Assembly: GCF_000317125.1 (NCBI RefSeq)
Contig: NC_019695.1
Coordinates: 4,638,336 to 4,702,335, forward strand
DNA length: 64,000 bases
Direction: 5' to 3'
DNA from: Chroococcidiopsis thermalis PCC 7203
GTDB taxonomy: Bacteria; Cyanobacteriota; Cyanobacteriia; Cyanobacteriales; Chroococcidiopsidaceae
Shown here: positions 4,593 to 25,993 of the stretch, piece after piece
Numbering within the stretch: position 1 is the stretch's first letter
Layout: every line of letters starts with the position of its first letter
The notes under the pieces: generated by a model
Databases searched by the model: none
Told to the model about the DNA's origin: nothing
Seen by the model: only the letters and a program-made list of their open reading frames with translations
Program-made: the position numbers and the translations under genes

Positions 4593-5132
4593 TTATGGGG
4601 AATTCTCCCATTCTGATGTAAGGCTACGGAAGTTGAAGGCGTTGGCGTTGGGATGACAGGTGACGCAACTGCTGAGTTGAGTTGGTTTTGGTAATTTGAC
4701 TTTGGGATGCAAAGCTTTGAAATAACGCGAGTTGGCAATGCGGTATGGTATTTCTTCGTCTTGGTTGAGGGGACGGGAAGCAAATCTGAGATAATTCCAC
4801 ACTAGAATGCGGGGTGGATCGACTAAGGGTTTGATTTGTACGCCGTAGTGCTGGGTATCTTGTAGCAGCCGCTGCCAAGTTTGCACGGGTAAGACGGCTG
4901 GTGGAACGGCGATGTGGCAAGTCGCGCAGTTTTCCAAGTAGAGTTCTTGTCCTAGTTGATAGCGTTGGGGAACTGCATCAATGGTGTTAGCTGGTTGGGC
5001 GTGCGTTGCCATTGCTAAAACCCAAGCAGCAGCAATACTCCAAGCTAAAATTAACAGAAAGAGGATCGCAGGCGATCGCTTGCTTTTTGGGCGATGTGGT
5101 TTCGATTTGAGGGCAGGTAACATAGTTGTCAT
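4593..5132 (-). CDS. Diheme cytochrome c family protein
   Basis: A 179-residue protein with a basic N-terminus, one hydrophobic segment (AILFLLILAWSIAAAWVLAMA, a signal anchor or signal peptide) and two c-type haem-binding motifs, CATCH and CVTCH, about 90 residues apart. Cytochromes of this kind are exported by Sec, and haem is attached on the p-side of the membrane. The electron-transfer partner is unknown. A conserved cyanobacterial diheme cytochrome of about this size exists, which I think this is. ATG codons at 5132 and 5123 are both possible starts. It is transcribed towards secA with no operon partner. Confidence 0.8.
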   Translation of the reverse strand: MTTMLPALKSKPHRPKSKRSPAILFLLILAWSIAAAWVLAMATHAQPANTIDAVPQRYQLGQELYLENCATCHIAVPPAVLPVQTWQRLLQDTQHYGVQIKPLVDPPRILVWNYLRFASRPLNQDEEIPYRIANSRYFKALHPKVKLPKPTQLSSCVTCHPNANAFNFRSLTSEWENSP

Positions 5133-6434: not shown

Positions 6435-6839
6435 TTAAAGGTTTGTTGAGATGGCTTGCGTTGGACAGGTAGGAATGCACTGTTCGCAGACAATACAGCG
6501 CGATCGCGTGAATGTCAGTTCAAATGTGGCAGAATTAAGGGTTAAGGCTTCGGTGGGACAAACTCCGGTACACAAACCGCAGTCTACGCAAAGTTCGCGA
6601 TCGATGGTAATTTCAGCCATTGCCGAAGAGACGTTGATGTTTTGCGATCGCATCCAATCAACCGCCGCATCGAGTTGATCGATATCTCCTGACAATTCTA
6701 CAACTAACGTACCAACTTGATTAGGGGCAACTTGAGCGCGGATAATATTAGCAGCAACGTTAAAATCTTTTGCCAGTCTGTATGTCACTGGTACTTGTAT
6801 GGCACGACGAGGGAAGGTCAGGGTAACTCTTTTTTTCAT
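6435..6839 (-). CDS. NIL-domain ferredoxin (2[4Fe-4S])
   Basis: The first about 75 residues form a NIL domain, an ACT-like module found at the end of methionine ABC transporter ATPases. The second half is a 2[4Fe-4S] ferredoxin with CVDCGLCTGVCPTEA and CIVCEQCIPTCPTQA, so both cluster sets of four Cys are complete. The family is common in cyanobacteria and methanogens. It is thought to be linked to sulfur-amino-acid metabolism, for example homocysteine formation, but that is family knowledge and not shown here. It is a single gene with an ATG at 6839. Confidence 0.9.
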   Translation of the reverse strand: MKKRVTLTFPRRAIQVPVTYRLAKDFNVAANIIRAQVAPNQVGTLVVELSGDIDQLDAAVDWMRSQNINVSSAMAEITIDRELCVDCGLCTGVCPTEALTLNSATFELTFTRSRCIVCEQCIPTCPTQAISTNL

Positions 6840-6981: not shown

Positions 6982-7572
6982 ATGAGTTTGAATACTCCAG
7001 ATCCTCCAATTGAGCCTACTGAGTTGACGGTAGGAAAACGGGTTAGAAATTTAATTGTAGTTTTAGTTGCGATCGCTCTGAGTGTCGCCTTATTCCTTGG
7101 CTTACGGACTCAAACGGGTGCAGTGACGCTAGCAACATTAAGCGATCGCTCGACACCGCTAGAAGTGGCTTTGAGCAACAGCAAGCCAACGCTGATGGAG
7201 TTTTATGCTGACTGGTGTACGGTATGTCAGAAAATGGTTCCAGATATTGCTCAGCTAGAACAAGAGTACGCCGGCAAGGTAAACTTTGTCATGCTGAATG
7301 TGGATAACAGCAAGTGGTTGCCAGAGATTCTGAAATATCGAGTTGACGGGATTCCCCATTTCGTGTATCTAGGTAAACAAGGAGAGGCGATCGCGCAGGC
7401 GATCGGAGAACAACCGCGCAGTATTATGGCAAGTAACTTAGAAGCTTTATTAAATGATGCGCCCTTGCCTTATACTTCCGCTAGCGGTCAAGTCTCCAAA
7501 TACGAAGCAAATGTTACTCCATCCTCTGAAACTGACGATCCACGTTTACATAGCTCCCAGGTGGTGAAGTGA
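6982..7572 (+). CDS. txlA: Thioredoxin-like TxlA/HCF164 family protein
   Basis: A 196-residue protein with one N-terminal membrane anchor (LIVVLVAIALSVALFLGL) and a thioredoxin domain with active site WCTVC (residues about 78-82) and the cis-Pro region IPHFVYLG. This matches TxlA of cyanobacteria and HCF164 of plastids. These are thylakoid-anchored lumenal thioredoxins that pass reducing power from CcdA to apocytochromes, so it should help cytochrome b6f and c6 assembly. The last 45 residues are Ser/Thr-rich and likely disordered. ATG at 6982; it is transcribed alone. Confidence 0.88.
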   Translation: MSLNTPDPPIEPTELTVGKRVRNLIVVLVAIALSVALFLGLRTQTGAVTLATLSDRSTPLEVALSNSKPTLMEFYADWCTVCQKMVPDIAQLEQEYAGKVNFVMLNVDNSKWLPEILKYRVDGIPHFVYLGKQGEAIAQAIGEQPRSIMASNLEALLNDAPLPYTSASGQVSKYEANVTPSSETDDPRLHSSQVVK

Positions 7573-10978: not shown

Positions 10979-11842
10979 ATGTCCGTACTAGAAGGTACTT
11001 GGCAACACGAATACATTATCAGTAACGGGCTGAGGCTGCACTACGTCACCCAAGGTGAAGGTCCGTTGATGTTGATGTTACACGGCTTTCCTGAGTTTTG
11101 GTACTCTTGGCGACATCAAATCCCTGAGTTTGCCAAGGATTACAAAGTCGTAGCATTAGACTTGCGGGGATATAACGACAGCGACAAACCAAAAGCGCAA
11201 TCAGCTTATGTCATGGCTGAGTTTATCAAAGATATTGAGGGTGTCATTAAGGGACTGGGATACGACAAGTGTATTTTAGTCGGACACGACTGGGGAGGAG
11301 CGATCGCGTGGAGTTTTGCCTACGCTCACCCAGAAATGGTAGAACGGCTGATCGTACTAAATATACCCCATCCTGCCAAATTTGCTGAGGGTTTCCGCAC
11401 GCCGCAACAATTGCTGAAGAGTTCTTATATGTTTCTATTCCAGCTTCCTGTCTTACCAGAAATGCTGCTTCAAGCGGGAGATTACCAAGCAATTGAAAAT
11501 GGCTTGAAAGGTATGGCTGTGAATAAGAGCGCTTTTACTCCCGCAGATATTGAGGCTTACAAAGATGCAGCAGCTAAGCGTGGAGCGCTAACAGCAGCCC
11601 TCAATTATTATCGCAATATGTTGCAACAAGGTATGACTAACCCAAATTGGGGTGTACTCAACGTACCAACATTGATGATTTGGGGTGAAAAAGATACAGC
11701 CTTGGGTAGGGAATTGAGTTATGGTACTGCTACTTACGTAAATCCATTCCAAGTTAGATACATTCCAGATGCTAGCCACTGGGTACAACAGGAAAAACCC
11801 GAATTAGTCAATGAGTATATGCGGGAGTTTTTGAGTAGTTAG
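10979..11842 (+). CDS. Alpha/beta hydrolase, epoxide hydrolase/haloalkane dehalogenase-like
   Basis: A 287-residue protein with the oxyanion motif HGFPEFWYSWRHQIPEF, the nucleophile elbow VGHDWGGAIAW (Asp is the nucleophile), and a late ASHWVQQEKP carrying the catalytic His. IWGEKDTALG would position the acid. The Asp nucleophile and HGxP motif point to epoxide hydrolase or haloalkane dehalogenase chemistry, and the cap domain lies at about 125-210. The physiological substrate cannot be told. ATG at 10979 with GAGGAG upstream; transcribed alone. Confidence 0.88.
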   Translation: MSVLEGTWQHEYIISNGLRLHYVTQGEGPLMLMLHGFPEFWYSWRHQIPEFAKDYKVVALDLRGYNDSDKPKAQSAYVMAEFIKDIEGVIKGLGYDKCILVGHDWGGAIAWSFAYAHPEMVERLIVLNIPHPAKFAEGFRTPQQLLKSSYMFLFQLPVLPEMLLQAGDYQAIENGLKGMAVNKSAFTPADIEAYKDAAAKRGALTAALNYYRNMLQQGMTNPNWGVLNVPTLMIWGEKDTALGRELSYGTATYVNPFQVRYIPDASHWVQQEKPELVNEYMREFLSS

Positions 11843-11996: not shown

Positions 11997-12602
11997 ATGA
12001 TAGATGGCTATTACGCTTTTGTACTGCGACGACTGGCTACAGTTCTGGCTGTAGTGATGTTGACTTTAAGCTCGATCGCCGCACTGACAGGAATTTTACT
12101 GGCATTTTACTACGAACCAACAGCAGGGGGAGCGTACAATTCTCTGAGGGCGATCGCAACTCAGCTCCCTAACGGTTGGTTAATCCGACGGATTCACTCT
12201 CTTGCTGGTAATGGCTTAATCGGTGTCTCCTTAGTTGAAATCGTTGTCATGTTTTTAGGAGAAAGATTTCGCCCAAGCTGGATAACTGCCTGGATTAGCG
12301 GTATTTTACTAACACTTACTGCGATCGGCTTAAGCTGGACGGCAATATTACTTGATTGGACGCAAATTGGTTACTGGCGATTCACAATTGAGTTAGGTAC
12401 GATTGAAGCGCTTCCAGCGATTGGTTCTCAGCTTCGTAATATTCTTACGGGTGGCGGCGCGGTAAATACTGTCACAGTTCAGCACCTGTTTACCATCCAC
12501 AGTTACCTGCTTTCCGGTGGCGCGATCGTTCTATCTATTATTCATTTGACAGGTTTATTGCTACAGGAAAAAGAGGTGAAGCAGATCGAATCGGCAAATT
12601 AG
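11997..12602 (+). CDS. Cytochrome b6-like (cytochrome b N-terminal domain) protein
   Basis: A 201-residue protein with four membrane helices that aligns throughout with PetB, which is encoded elsewhere in this window (25132-25800). The shared landmarks are TGxxxAFYYEPT, GWLIRRIHSLAGN, the WxxxQIGYWRFTIELGTIEALP loop, and the final IHSYLLSGG...IIHLTG. Three of the four haem-ligand His are kept; the second (fourteen residues after the first) is Glu. The Cys that binds haem ci in PetB is Val. So haem bp could bind normally, but bn and ci probably not. No petD-like gene is adjacent. Its role is unknown; it may act as a separate quinol- or membrane-bound electron carrier. Confidence 0.85.
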   Translation: MIDGYYAFVLRRLATVLAVVMLTLSSIAALTGILLAFYYEPTAGGAYNSLRAIATQLPNGWLIRRIHSLAGNGLIGVSLVEIVVMFLGERFRPSWITAWISGILLTLTAIGLSWTAILLDWTQIGYWRFTIELGTIEALPAIGSQLRNILTGGGAVNTVTVQHLFTIHSYLLSGGAIVLSIIHLTGLLLQEKEVKQIESAN

Positions 12603-13514: not shown

Positions 13515-14825
13515 CTAACAATCGCTCGCTTCCAGCAATATATCTCTAAGAATTTGCAGGGCAACTTGAATTTGAGCGCTGTCAATAACTAATGGCGGAC
13601 AAAAACGAATTGCTGCTTTGCCACAACCTAAGAGCAACAAACCCTTTAAAAAGGCAAAATCGATAATGCGATCGCGCCGCTCTGAATCTAACTTACCATC
13701 CGCATCCAAGACATCAAATGCTACCATCAATCCTTTACCGCGTGGAGGGGAGATCCAAGAAAATTGCTGTGACAGCTCCGTAAGCCCGGACATCAATAAG
13801 TTGCCCATGTTTTGAGCATTTTCAATCAAACCACCTTCCAACAACCGTAAGGTTACGTTAGCCGCCGCACAAGCCACGGGATTACCTCCAAATGTCGTAG
13901 CGTGAGAGCCAGGTTGCCAAGTCATCAGGTGCGATCGCGCTAAAATTGCCCCCAAAGGTAGACCGCTAGCAATGCCTTTTGCCAAAGTAATAATATCCGG
14001 CACTACACCCCAATGCTCGATCGCGAATAAGCGCCCAGTCCGACCCATTCCCGCTTGCACTTCATCGACAATCATCAAAATACCGTGGCGATCGCAAATC
14101 TGCCGAATTCGTTTTAAAAAACCATCTTCCGGTACGATATAGCCGCCTTCCCCTTGAATTGGTTCGACGAAAATTGCTGCAATATCTTCTGGAGGCAGAA
14201 CGGTAGGAAAAAGCTTTGATTCTAGATAGTCTAACGCTGCATGAGTACCATAGGGAATGTGAGTCACTCCTGGTAATAGAGGACCGAAGTGCTGTCGTTG
14301 CACGGCTTTAGAACCCGTCAGCGACATTGCCCCGTAGGTACGCCCGTGGAATGCACCCAAGAAAGCAACAACTTGAGAACGTCTGGTATAGTAACGAGCA
14401 AGTTTCAGCGCCCCCTCATTAGACTCAGCCCCAGAATTGCTAAAAAAGACTTTTGCCGGAATCAGAAAGGGGGCGCGAGTTGCTAAATTTTCCGCCAACT
14501 CCACCATCGACTCGTAGTAAAAATCAGTTCCCGACATATGGAGCAAATTGGCAGCTTGTGCTTGAACTGCTGCGACAACTTCAGGATGAGCGTGTCCAGT
14601 CGATGCTACGGCAATACCGGCGGTTAGATCTAAAAATACGTTACCATCGACATCTTCCACCATGCAGCCCTCACCACGGGCAACCACAAGCGGATAGCCA
14701 CGGGTATAGGAAGGTGACGTGACAGCGCGATCGCGTTCTACCAATACTTGAGCGCGGGGACCAGGTAAGGAAGTCACTAAGTGAGGCACAAGCGGCAGAG
14801 GGCGTTTAGTTGGGATACTTAGCAT
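13515..14825 (-). CDS. Class III aminotransferase (acetylornithine/GABA aminotransferase family)
   Basis: A 436-residue PLP enzyme. The lysine that binds PLP is in ITLAKGIASGLPLGA; the co-factor Asp is in LMIVDEVQAGMGRTG; the N-terminal part has GNVFLDLTAGIAVAS. It belongs to the acetylornithine/4-aminobutyrate family, but the name ArgD or GabT cannot be decided from sequence alone. The open frame continues upstream through a GC-rich minisatellite giving a Pro-rich stretch, which is not real; MLSIPTKRPLPLVPHL from the ATG at 14825 is the natural start. It sits 31 bp before fghA on the same strand. Confidence 0.88.
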   Translation of the reverse strand: MLSIPTKRPLPLVPHLVTSLPGPRAQVLVERDRAVTSPSYTRGYPLVVARGEGCMVEDVDGNVFLDLTAGIAVASTGHAHPEVVAAVQAQAANLLHMSGTDFYYESMVELAENLATRAPFLIPAKVFFSNSGAESNEGALKLARYYTRRSQVVAFLGAFHGRTYGAMSLTGSKAVQRQHFGPLLPGVTHIPYGTHAALDYLESKLFPTVLPPEDIAAIFVEPIQGEGGYIVPEDGFLKRIRQICDRHGILMIVDEVQAGMGRTGRLFAIEHWGVVPDIITLAKGIASGLPLGAILARSHLMTWQPGSHATTFGGNPVACAAANVTLRLLEGGLIENAQNMGNLLMSGLTELSQQFSWISPPRGKGLMVAFDVLDADGKLDSERRDRIIDFAFLKGLLLLGCGKAAIRFCPPLVIDSAQIQVALQILRDILLEASDC

Positions 14826-14957
14826 GGGTAAGGACAAGGGGGACAAGGGGGACAAGGGGACAAGGGGGACAAGGGGGACAAGGGGGAACTCGGGGACCCC
14901 ACGACCGAAGGGAGTGGGGATTAGGGGACAAGGGGGACAAGGGGGACAAGGGGGAAT
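14826..14957. repeat. GGGGGACAA minisatellite with embedded unique segment
   Basis: Tandem GGGGGACAA units interrupted at about 14885-14930 by a non-repetitive GC-rich segment (ACCCCACGACCGAAGGGAGT in part). The same segment recurs in inverse orientation near 30280-30330. It abuts the aminotransferase start and must cover or displace its promoter. Confidence 0.9.
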
Positions 14958-14959
14958 AA

Positions 14960-14994
14960 CTACCAACTACCAACTACCAACTACCAACTACCAC
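14960..14994. repeat. CTACCAA heptamer array
   Basis: Five tandem copies of a 7-bp unit, directly after the minisatellite. Confidence 0.85.
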
Positions 14995-24560: not shown

Positions 24561-25043
24561 TTAGAACAGACCGAAAGTGAAAGATTTGTCAATCGGGAAA
24601 GCAGCACCAATACCGAGCCACAAGGTAACTAAAGTTCCAACTAAAAACACAGTTGTTGCGACTGGACGGCGGAAGGGATTTTGGAACTTATTGACACTCT
24701 CAATAAATGGAACCAGAATTAACCCCAGTGGTACGGAAGCCATCAGCACGACTCCCAATAATTTATTGGGGACTGACCGCAGAATTTGGAATACTGGGTA
24801 TAAATACCACTCAGGTAAAATTTCCAGAGGCGTAGCGAAAGGATTTGCTGGTTCGCCTACCATTGCTGGGTCTAGTACGGACAAAGCGACTATACAAGCA
24901 CCCGTTCCCAAAATTACCACAGGGAAAATATAGAGCAAGTCGTTAGGCCAAGCAGGTTCGCCATAATAATTATGACCCATGCCCTTAGCCAGCTTGGCAC
25001 GTAATTGAGGGTCGCTCAGGTCTGGTTTTTTTAGTGTTCCCAT
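24561..25043 (-). CDS. petD: Cytochrome b6f complex subunit IV
   Basis: A 160-residue protein, full length. It begins [21 protein letters not shown] and has the quinol-site motif [18 protein letters not shown] (PEWY), followed by three membrane helices. It forms, with cytochrome b6, the quinol-oxidising core of the b6f complex in the thylakoid membrane, which passes electrons from plastoquinol to plastocyanin or cytochrome c6. It follows petB by 88 bp on the same strand, the usual petBD operon. Confidence 0.98.
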
Positions 25044-25131: not shown

Positions 25132-25800
25132 TTACAACGGACCAGAAATACCTTGCTTGCGGATCATCAAGAAATGCAGCAGCATGAAGACAGCGATCGC
25201 CCAAGGTAAGACAAAGGTATGAGCGCTGTAGTAGCGAGTTAGCGTTGCTTGACCTACACTCGAACCGCCGCGCAACAAGTCAGCAATGAGAGTACCGACG
25301 ACTGGAATCGCTTCTGGTACACCACTAACGATTTTTACCGCCCAATAGCCGACCTGATCCCAAGGTAAGGAGTAACCCGTTACACCAAAGGAAACGGTAA
25401 TTACTGCCAAAATTACGCCTGTTACCCATGTCAGTTCGCGGGGCTTTTTGAAACCGCCAGTTAAGTAAACTCTGAATGTATGCAAGATCATCATCAGCAC
25501 CATCATGCTGGCTGACCAGCGGTGAATGGAGCGGATCAACCAGCCGAAGTTTACATCCGTCATGAGGTACTGTACGGAAGCATAAGCTTCAGTTACAGTC
25601 GGTTTGTAATAAAAAGTCATGGCGAATCCAGTCGCAAACTGGATTAAAAAGCAAACCAGGGTGATACCACCGAGACAGTAAAAAATATTGACGTGTGGGG
25701 GGACGTACTTACTGGTTACATCTTCAGCAAGAGCCTGGATCTCCAAGCGCTCCTCAAACCAGTTGTATGCTTTTGAATCAGTTACCTGTTTACTAAACAT
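25132..25800 (-). CDS. petB: Cytochrome b6
   Basis: A 222-residue protein, four membrane helices. All ligands are visible: [18 protein letters not shown] holds the first two haem His (fourteen apart), and [18 protein letters not shown] the second pair (fifteen apart). The Cys in [10 protein letters not shown] is the haem ci ligand. It heads the petBD operon. I use the ATG at 25800; the TTG just before it is unlikely. It is divergent from ctpA across about 300 bp, a known arrangement in cyanobacteria. Confidence 0.98.
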
Positions 25801-25993
25801 CAACCAAAAGTTCCTAAAAATGGATTGCGTCTGTTCAAATTCCCGATTGTCTTTGCAGGGATCGTCTTTTCAAGGTTTCTTAATGGCTGGAAATCCAGTC
25901 ATTTCGATCTTAATCGCGATCGCGAACAATTTGCTCGTCCAGACTGCATCAGATTCTATAAAAAAAGTAACATAGTCGAGAGGACAGTTGGAA

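Follow-up and report, generated by a model that had tools for sequence, protein, structure and literature searches.

Cytochrome b6-like proteins of cyanobacteria with glutamine, glutamate or aspartate at the position of a haem-ligand histidine

The window, that is, the whole stretch of 64,000 nucleotides of Chroococcidiopsis thermalis PCC 7203 that was analysed, contains two genes related to cytochrome b6. One is the genuine petB of the b6f complex, which adjoins petD; the other, about 12 kb away from petD, encodes a b6-like protein of 201 residues. The features on which the argument rests are given below. Residues of b6 are numbered as in Mastigocladus, which corresponds to the position in the PetB of the window minus 8, and the solved b6 chains share this offset.

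10979..11842, + strand: alpha/beta hydrolase gene, upstream of the b6-like gene across a gap of 154 bases
11997..12602, + strand: b6-like gene (Glu-bearing copy, 201 aa), ATG start, intact frame
12042..12044, + strand: Val16, where an ungapped count places b6 Cys35, the residue that attaches haem ci
12195..12197, + strand: His67, corresponding to b6 H86 (p-side haem ligand, helix B)
12237..12239, + strand: Glu81 (GAA), at the position of b6 H100 (n-side haem ligand, helix B)
12336..12338, + strand: Trp114, at b6 V133, near-invariant
12498..12500, + strand: His168, corresponding to b6 H187 (p-side haem ligand, helix D)
12543..12545, + strand: His183, corresponding to b6 H202 (n-side haem ligand, helix D)
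24561-25043, - strand: petD, adjoining the true petB
25132-25803, - strand: true petB, the genuine b6f gene of the window
G000:C1:3399210-3399791, same genome: Gln-bearing b6-like paralogue, 63% identical to the copy in the window

The 201-residue protein matches the Pfam family Cytochrome_B (PF00033) with 90.6 bits (1.5e-25), above the gathering cut-off of 27.2, and also Cytochrom_B_N_2 (1.5e-12). The first-pass annotation had aligned it with the PetB of the window, and this alignment is borne out, with 28% identity across residues 21-185. The residues and spacings reported there are all correct: positions 67 and 81, His and Glu, lie 14 residues apart, and positions 168 and 183, both His, 15 residues apart. 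The replacement of the haem ci cysteine by valine holds as well. The equivalence of Val16 is an ungapped count, with Val16 placed 16 residues before a conserved glycine (b6 Gly51), the Cys35 column itself being gapped in every row of the MAFFT alignment; by this count, the position is occupied by Ile, Leu or Val in 127 of the 130 family members long enough to read, and by Cys in none.

A model calculated with AlphaFold2 from 52 family sequences (pLDDT 92.3, pTM 0.85) has four long predicted helices, comprising residues 4-36, 60-87, 93-119 and 158-200. Its nearest solved folds are those of cytochrome b6, with a TM-score of 0.80 to 7r0w_A and a Z-score of 19.9 to 2e74_A (rmsd 2.6, 188 residues aligned with the model); in the same list, two unrelated designed helix bundles reach Z-scores of 16.0 and 14.9 over 143-144 residues. 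The margin of the fold over the designed bundles is real but not huge, and it is sequence homology that settles the kinship with b6. The first ~24 residues of b6 are without counterpart in the alignment with the model.

Three Cytochrome_B (PF00033) domains were found in the genome from which the window derives: the true PetB, the Glu-bearing gene and a second b6-like gene, so that Glu and Gln copies coexist in one genome. In a sample of the phylum, 34 b6-like copies were counted by eye in 32 of 386 genomes (E 1.7e-69 or lower), and a profile search of a class sample yielded, again by eye, 82 copies in 79 of 388 genomes. A clear gap separates them from PetB, the last b6-like copy in the 388 class genomes scoring 258 bits and the best PetB-like match 129 bits. 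Judged by these scores, the b6-like proteins are a distinct cyanobacterial family, set apart from PetB. For the family counts 161 rows were read: 31 from the genome itself and the phylum sample, 80 from a scan of named genomes (the best 80 of 438 relatives) and 50 of the 82 class-sample copies (30 as loci and 20 fetched), few of the other 32 being represented through earlier loci. The 161 rows reduce to 152 and further to 131 that are non-redundant over b6 positions 51-204; loci L003-L007 (PetB, an unrelated match and second views of both copies) stand outside all counts.

Many of the holders are, by name, cyanobacteria of soil, crust or rock (Nostoc, Chroococcidiopsidaceae, Microcoleus vaginatus, Trichocoleus), and none of the listed genomes of the family f25 (1.6-3.7 Mb) in the phylum and class samples carries the gene. 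One b6-like gene lies on a record of Candidatus Gracilibacteria (L104), which is probably a cyanobacterial contig that was wrongly binned. In one subclade (L147-L155 and L158-L160) the protein has an additional N-terminal part of ~100 residues with one hydrophobic stretch and a motif of the type W-Q-x-Y-Q-D/G-W-L-R. Two examples of this extension matched no Pfam family above cut-off, and a separate gene for it was not clearly found in 194 genomes, 12 of which gave a match (five to the fused protein, seven weak).

The substitution that sets the family apart concerns the n-side ligand in helix B. At the column of b6 H100, Gln occurs in 121, Glu in eight and Asp in two of the 131 non-redundant members, and His in none. 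The column of H86 holds His in 129 and Tyr in two, that of H187 His in 120 and Asn in 11, and that of H202 His in 126 and Asn in five; the p-side pair H86/H187 is hence broken in 13 of the 131. Asn or Tyr at the ligand columns other than that of H100 is found in 17 of the 131 rows, which come from Nostocales, from f5, a family of the window's own order with loci that in part duplicate named Nostocales rows, or from L062 (Aff. Roholtiella), the order of which is unresolved in the table. In the rows outside these groups (63 of 63, L062 being set aside from this sum), H86, H187 and H202 are always His. The fewest changes that account for the columns of H86, H100, H187 and H202 are 2, 6, 7 and 3 on a tree of 111 rows and 2, 6, 6 and 4 on one of 131 rows; both trees were built without the ligand columns by quick searches that left many open forks, and the counts are therefore approximate.

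Had the missing His reappeared in close relatives, the glutamate would have been an accident of one genome; none of them has it. By the alignment, the ligand substitution is real, family-wide and old, and a lone mutation or a sequencing error is ruled out by the absence of His from all 131 sequences. Conservation of Glu within the clade, which had been put forward for checking as well, was not found. The nearest clade of the window copy (nine rows, an open fork with support 85) mixes Glu (L001, L037, L038, L008, L040 and L041, of which L038 and L008 are identical) with Gln (L039, L042 and L043), and Glu recurs elsewhere (L059/L098 and L065); Glu as a clade signature is thereby ruled out.

Selection on the family was estimated from pairwise dN/dS (simple Nei-Gojobori counts, in groups hand-picked from the 111-row tree). 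The medians range from 0.076 to 0.153 in the six groups of four or more members, three single pairs have 0.069-0.108, and the highest single pairwise value is 0.346. Groups rich in Asn187 have medians of 0.125 and 0.10 and the group rich in Asn202 has 0.153, these groups including His members as well (L017 in one; L052, L061 and L072 in another). The values indicate strong purifying selection on the b6-like family. A pseudogene or an error in the sequence, for which nothing more than the missing ligand would speak, has next to no probability in view of these medians, the intact frame, the high-confidence fold and the absence of His across many genomes. Since 13 of the 131 members lack an intact p-side pair while dN/dS is low in the groups rich in Asn187, a bis-His haem on the p side cannot be essential family-wide. 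The earlier proposal of a probably intact haem bp thus fits the window copy, which has both His67 and His168, but does not extend to the whole family.

The loss of the n-side His likewise stands, whereas an empty and neglected haem bn site is not the obvious reading of it. The position is polar in 131 of 131 sequences, whereas a freed position in a membrane helix would be expected to turn hydrophobic; column 100 thus appears to have a job. In 15 of 190 columns, 95% or more of the 131 sequences have a strongly polar residue (D, E, N, Q, H, K, R). By our own placing of these columns on the predicted helices, the four ligand columns are the only ones that would lie deep in long helices; the remaining ones would be situated nearer the helix ends (b6 28, 29, 182 and 209), in loops or in the short helical segments that connect C with D.

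These observations are compatible with a haem that persists on the n side in five-coordinate, high-spin form, with H183 as the proximal ligand and Glu, Gln or Asp on the distal side; Asn187 would likewise turn the haem of the p side high-spin. This reading, which we consider unlikely, would make the family a natural set of transmembrane b cytochromes with non-bis-His haem. In its favour are the persistence of Gln, Glu or Asp at column 100 despite at least six changes, the retention of His at column 202 in 126 members and the deep placement of the polar ligand columns. A laboratory mutant points in the same direction: cytochrome b H198N of Rhodobacter capsulatus keeps its haem bL, which becomes high-spin and high-potential, according to the available part of PMC8138165. 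The S-x-H-x-x-x-L-P motif is common to the mutagenic primer printed in that part and to the PetB of the window, for which reason we read H198N as the equivalent of b6 H187N, and the natural Asn187 variants may accordingly be high-spin rather than haem-free. The same pages cite an earlier report on R. sphaeroides, however, in which H198N was taken as loss of haem bL. On the n side, PMC4807273 describes the bc1 mutant H212N as a knock-out of haem bH, one that reverts to Lys. In our own reading, bc1 H212 is the equivalent of b6 H202, the partner ligand in helix D and not H100 itself; by analogy, the mutant would weigh for an empty n-side site. Asn at position 202 in five of 131 members also speaks against a five-coordinate haem.

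Several other positions are changed throughout the family. R103 is replaced by Val, Ile or Leu, R114 by Trp and R207 by Leu, Ile, Val, Met or Phe, each in 131 of 131 sequences, and K208 by Trp in 72 of the 131. Ala or Ser takes the place of G37, and G51 is retained, in 151 of 152 rows each, with one gap in either column. On the opposite side, V133 is replaced by Trp in 151 of 152 rows and G135 by Ala in 146, Ser in five and Glu in one; R83 is poorly kept (Arg in 35 of 131). In b6f and bc1 structures, R103, R114 and R207 are situated on the haem bn side, close to the n-side haems, and V133 and G135 close to haem bp and the quinol pocket of the p side. The loss of the three arginines counts against a five-coordinate n-side haem, and the change at G37 may close the n-side pocket.

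The same arginines, replaced by hydrophobic residues or Trp, also speak for a protein that has become independent of haem altogether, as a scaffold, an assembly or regulatory factor, or a binder of chlorophyll or quinone, with the former ligands serving as hydrogen-bond partners or Mg ligands. His, Gln, Glu, Asp and Asn all serve as Mg ligands of chlorophyll, and the ligand columns vary among polar residues only (His/Tyr; Gln/Glu/Asp; His/Asn; His/Asn), in repeated changes and at low dN/dS. A pure scaffold, on the other hand, would need none of the three histidines, which are nevertheless invariant in all 63 rows from beyond Nostocales and f5. We regard such a haem-independent role as somewhat unlikely. 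Much the same weight may be given to the view that selection turned the former bis-His sites into open tetrapyrrole sites with a single His ligand and a conserved Gln, Glu or Asp opposite, which would hold either a high-spin haem b able to bind a small ligand, or a chlorophyll or porphyrin. In Nostocales, the p-side His would then have given way to Asn several times.

The first-pass annotation had further noted the lack of a petD nearby. Taken literally, this does not hold, since petD lies within the window, ~12 kb off; what does hold is that no second PetD was found in the genome, with one PF00032 domain, located beside the true petB, vs three PF00033 domains. This bears on the idea that the protein is a second form of cytochrome b6, which would take the place of PetB in a fraction of the b6f complexes. 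Homology and fold would accommodate it, yet it is very improbable: the b6-like protein scores 95 bits with the NCBIfam cytochrome b6 model NF002990, the cut-off of which is 325 and with which the PetB of the window scores 389.8; the window copy has Asp at b6 Pro139, as do 88 of 111 members; Cys35 is lost; and no second PetD was found in the genome.

The gene neighbourhood varies considerably. A relative of the alpha/beta hydrolase gene upstream in the window is also found near the b6-like gene in L037, L040 and L041 and is unlinked in G005, G062 and G308; on the other side, an opposite-strand gene of the esterase family (PF00756) then follows. In 55 of the 80 named loci, mostly Nostocaceae by name, a co-directional gene for a PGAP1-like lipase (alpha/beta hydrolase) lies upstream, and a by-eye comparison placed the lipase within ~2 kb of 25 of the 34 phylum-sample copies. 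The lipase is present in 28 of the 32 phylum-sample genomes with the b6-like gene and also in 31 without it, and an ancestral gene order may therefore explain the pairing. Labels read from translations place a putative sodium/proton antiporter downstream on the other strand in 48 of the 80 loci, and putative petJ, petE and psbV within 10 kb upstream in 33, 31 and 28; the latter lie at a median distance of ~3.9-5.3 kb, in most cases with an opposite-strand gene between. Among 27 loci drawn with 7.5 kb on each side, the majority of them from outside Nostocaceae, most have flanks that are not shared with the other loci, petJ/petE/psbV-like genes appear only at L110 and L112, and the lipase adjoins the b6-like gene in six. 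Neither a redox partner gene common to the family nor an operon with an obvious redox partner was found among the 80 loci (up to 10 kb on each side; reading frames of at least 120 codons, to which all neighbour counts are confined), and scans for promoters and terminators gave no more than chance.

Several other genes lie in this part of the window. A dihaem cytochrome c (Pfam DHC, 1.2e-29) is encoded at 4593-5132 (- strand), at a distance of 7 kb from the b6-like gene; the presumed partners of DHC in Rhodobacter are a membrane b cytochrome and a high-spin haem protein. At 6435-6839 (- strand), a NIL domain is fused to a two-cluster ferredoxin. The thioredoxin-domain protein (PF00085) encoded at 6982-7572 (+ strand) has a hydrophobic N-terminal stretch and presumably resembles TxlA/HCF164, an assembly factor of cytochrome b6f. 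The aminotransferase reading frame at 13515-14966 (- strand) opens with a proline-rich repeat (CPPCPPCP, PLVPLVPL), which is probably an intergenic repeat read through from an upstream TTG, with a later start being likely.

The explanation that we prefer, tentatively and with not quite even confidence, is a stand-alone family of b6 fold, probably outside the b6f complex, the window copy of which is a one-haem membrane cytochrome, or haem-dependent protein, with a pathway of its own. It could be built in the following manner: (i) on the p side, H67 and H168 would bind one low-spin bis-His haem b; (ii) the n-side site would no longer hold a bis-His haem, and haem ci would be absent; (iii) the polar residue of the n side (Gln, Glu or Asp) and H202 appear to be selected, and their site is probably still active, as an altered haem or as a proton or quinone contact. 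Electrons would then be unable to cross the membrane via the two-haem route of the Q-cycle, so that the protein would act as a one-haem cytochrome. The statement of the first-pass annotation that the normal Q-cycle cannot run fares well: given the changes at R103, R114 and R207, the loss of Cys35 and the single PetD domain, it is very unlikely that the protein has a two-haem route that includes haem ci, and His is missing at column 100 throughout the family. That a p-side pair can be critical has a precedent in b6 itself, in which, as far as the available text of PMC5730185 goes, haems bind stepwise and the double mutant H86A+H187A binds none; by analogy, this supports the one-haem explanation. 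Against it stands the remodelling of the p side as well, with Trp at V133, Ala at G135 and a variable R83.

In bc complexes, the transmembrane b cytochromes are distinguished by bis-His haem ligation. The b6-like family, present in about one-fifth of the sampled class genomes (79/388), offers natural variants of a known fold with Gln, Glu, Asp, Asn or Tyr in place of His. From their sequences, many cyanobacteria appear to retain a membrane protein that is built like b6, is probably unable to do the job of b6 and seems to be kept for another. The open-licence PMC literature, to the extent available, yielded no description of the family, although reports elsewhere could be missed, and the accessible part of PMC6616624 contains no b6-like protein. 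Engineered ligand swaps in bc1 prompted the question, printed in the available part of PMC4807273, of whether nature varies ligation in membrane proteins of such design; that the question was asked lends some support to a five-coordinate haem.

Fold and superfamily of the b6-like protein are known, and within them three relatives invite comparison. (i) Cytochrome b6 (PetB) has in common with it the four-helix fold, three of the four haem b histidines, the spacing of the pairs, the FYY and GYW motifs, and W140 and Q142. It differs in having two bis-His haem b sites (H86/H187 and H100/H202), where the b6-like protein has Glu81, or elsewhere Gln or Asp, at H100; in Cys35, where the window copy has Val16; in R103, R114, R207 and K208, which are lost; in V133 and G135, replaced by Trp and Ala; and in its PetD partner, the only PetD found in the genome standing beside the true petB. 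A mutant described by Malnoe et al. reportedly concerns a haem ligand of b6. (ii) ExtP, a b-type cytochrome of selenite/tellurite reduction operons (NF040969), is likewise b6-like, with a model of 205 positions; it is the best-scoring NCBIfam model (102.1 bits), and neither Pfam nor NCBIfam gave a closer named family, yet the window protein lies far below its cut-off of 290 bits and thus fails the test for ExtP as it does that for cytochrome b6. (iii) The Rhodobacter cytochrome bc1 mutants share with the family the change of His to Asn at the p-side ligand of helix D, which occurs here naturally at b6 H187. They differ in being laboratory changes within a whole bc1 complex (H198N, H212N and the Lys variants), in which, according to the available parts of PMC8138165 and PMC4807273, H198N loses enzyme function and H212N has a defect at the haem bH/Qi site, whereas the Lys variants are functional.
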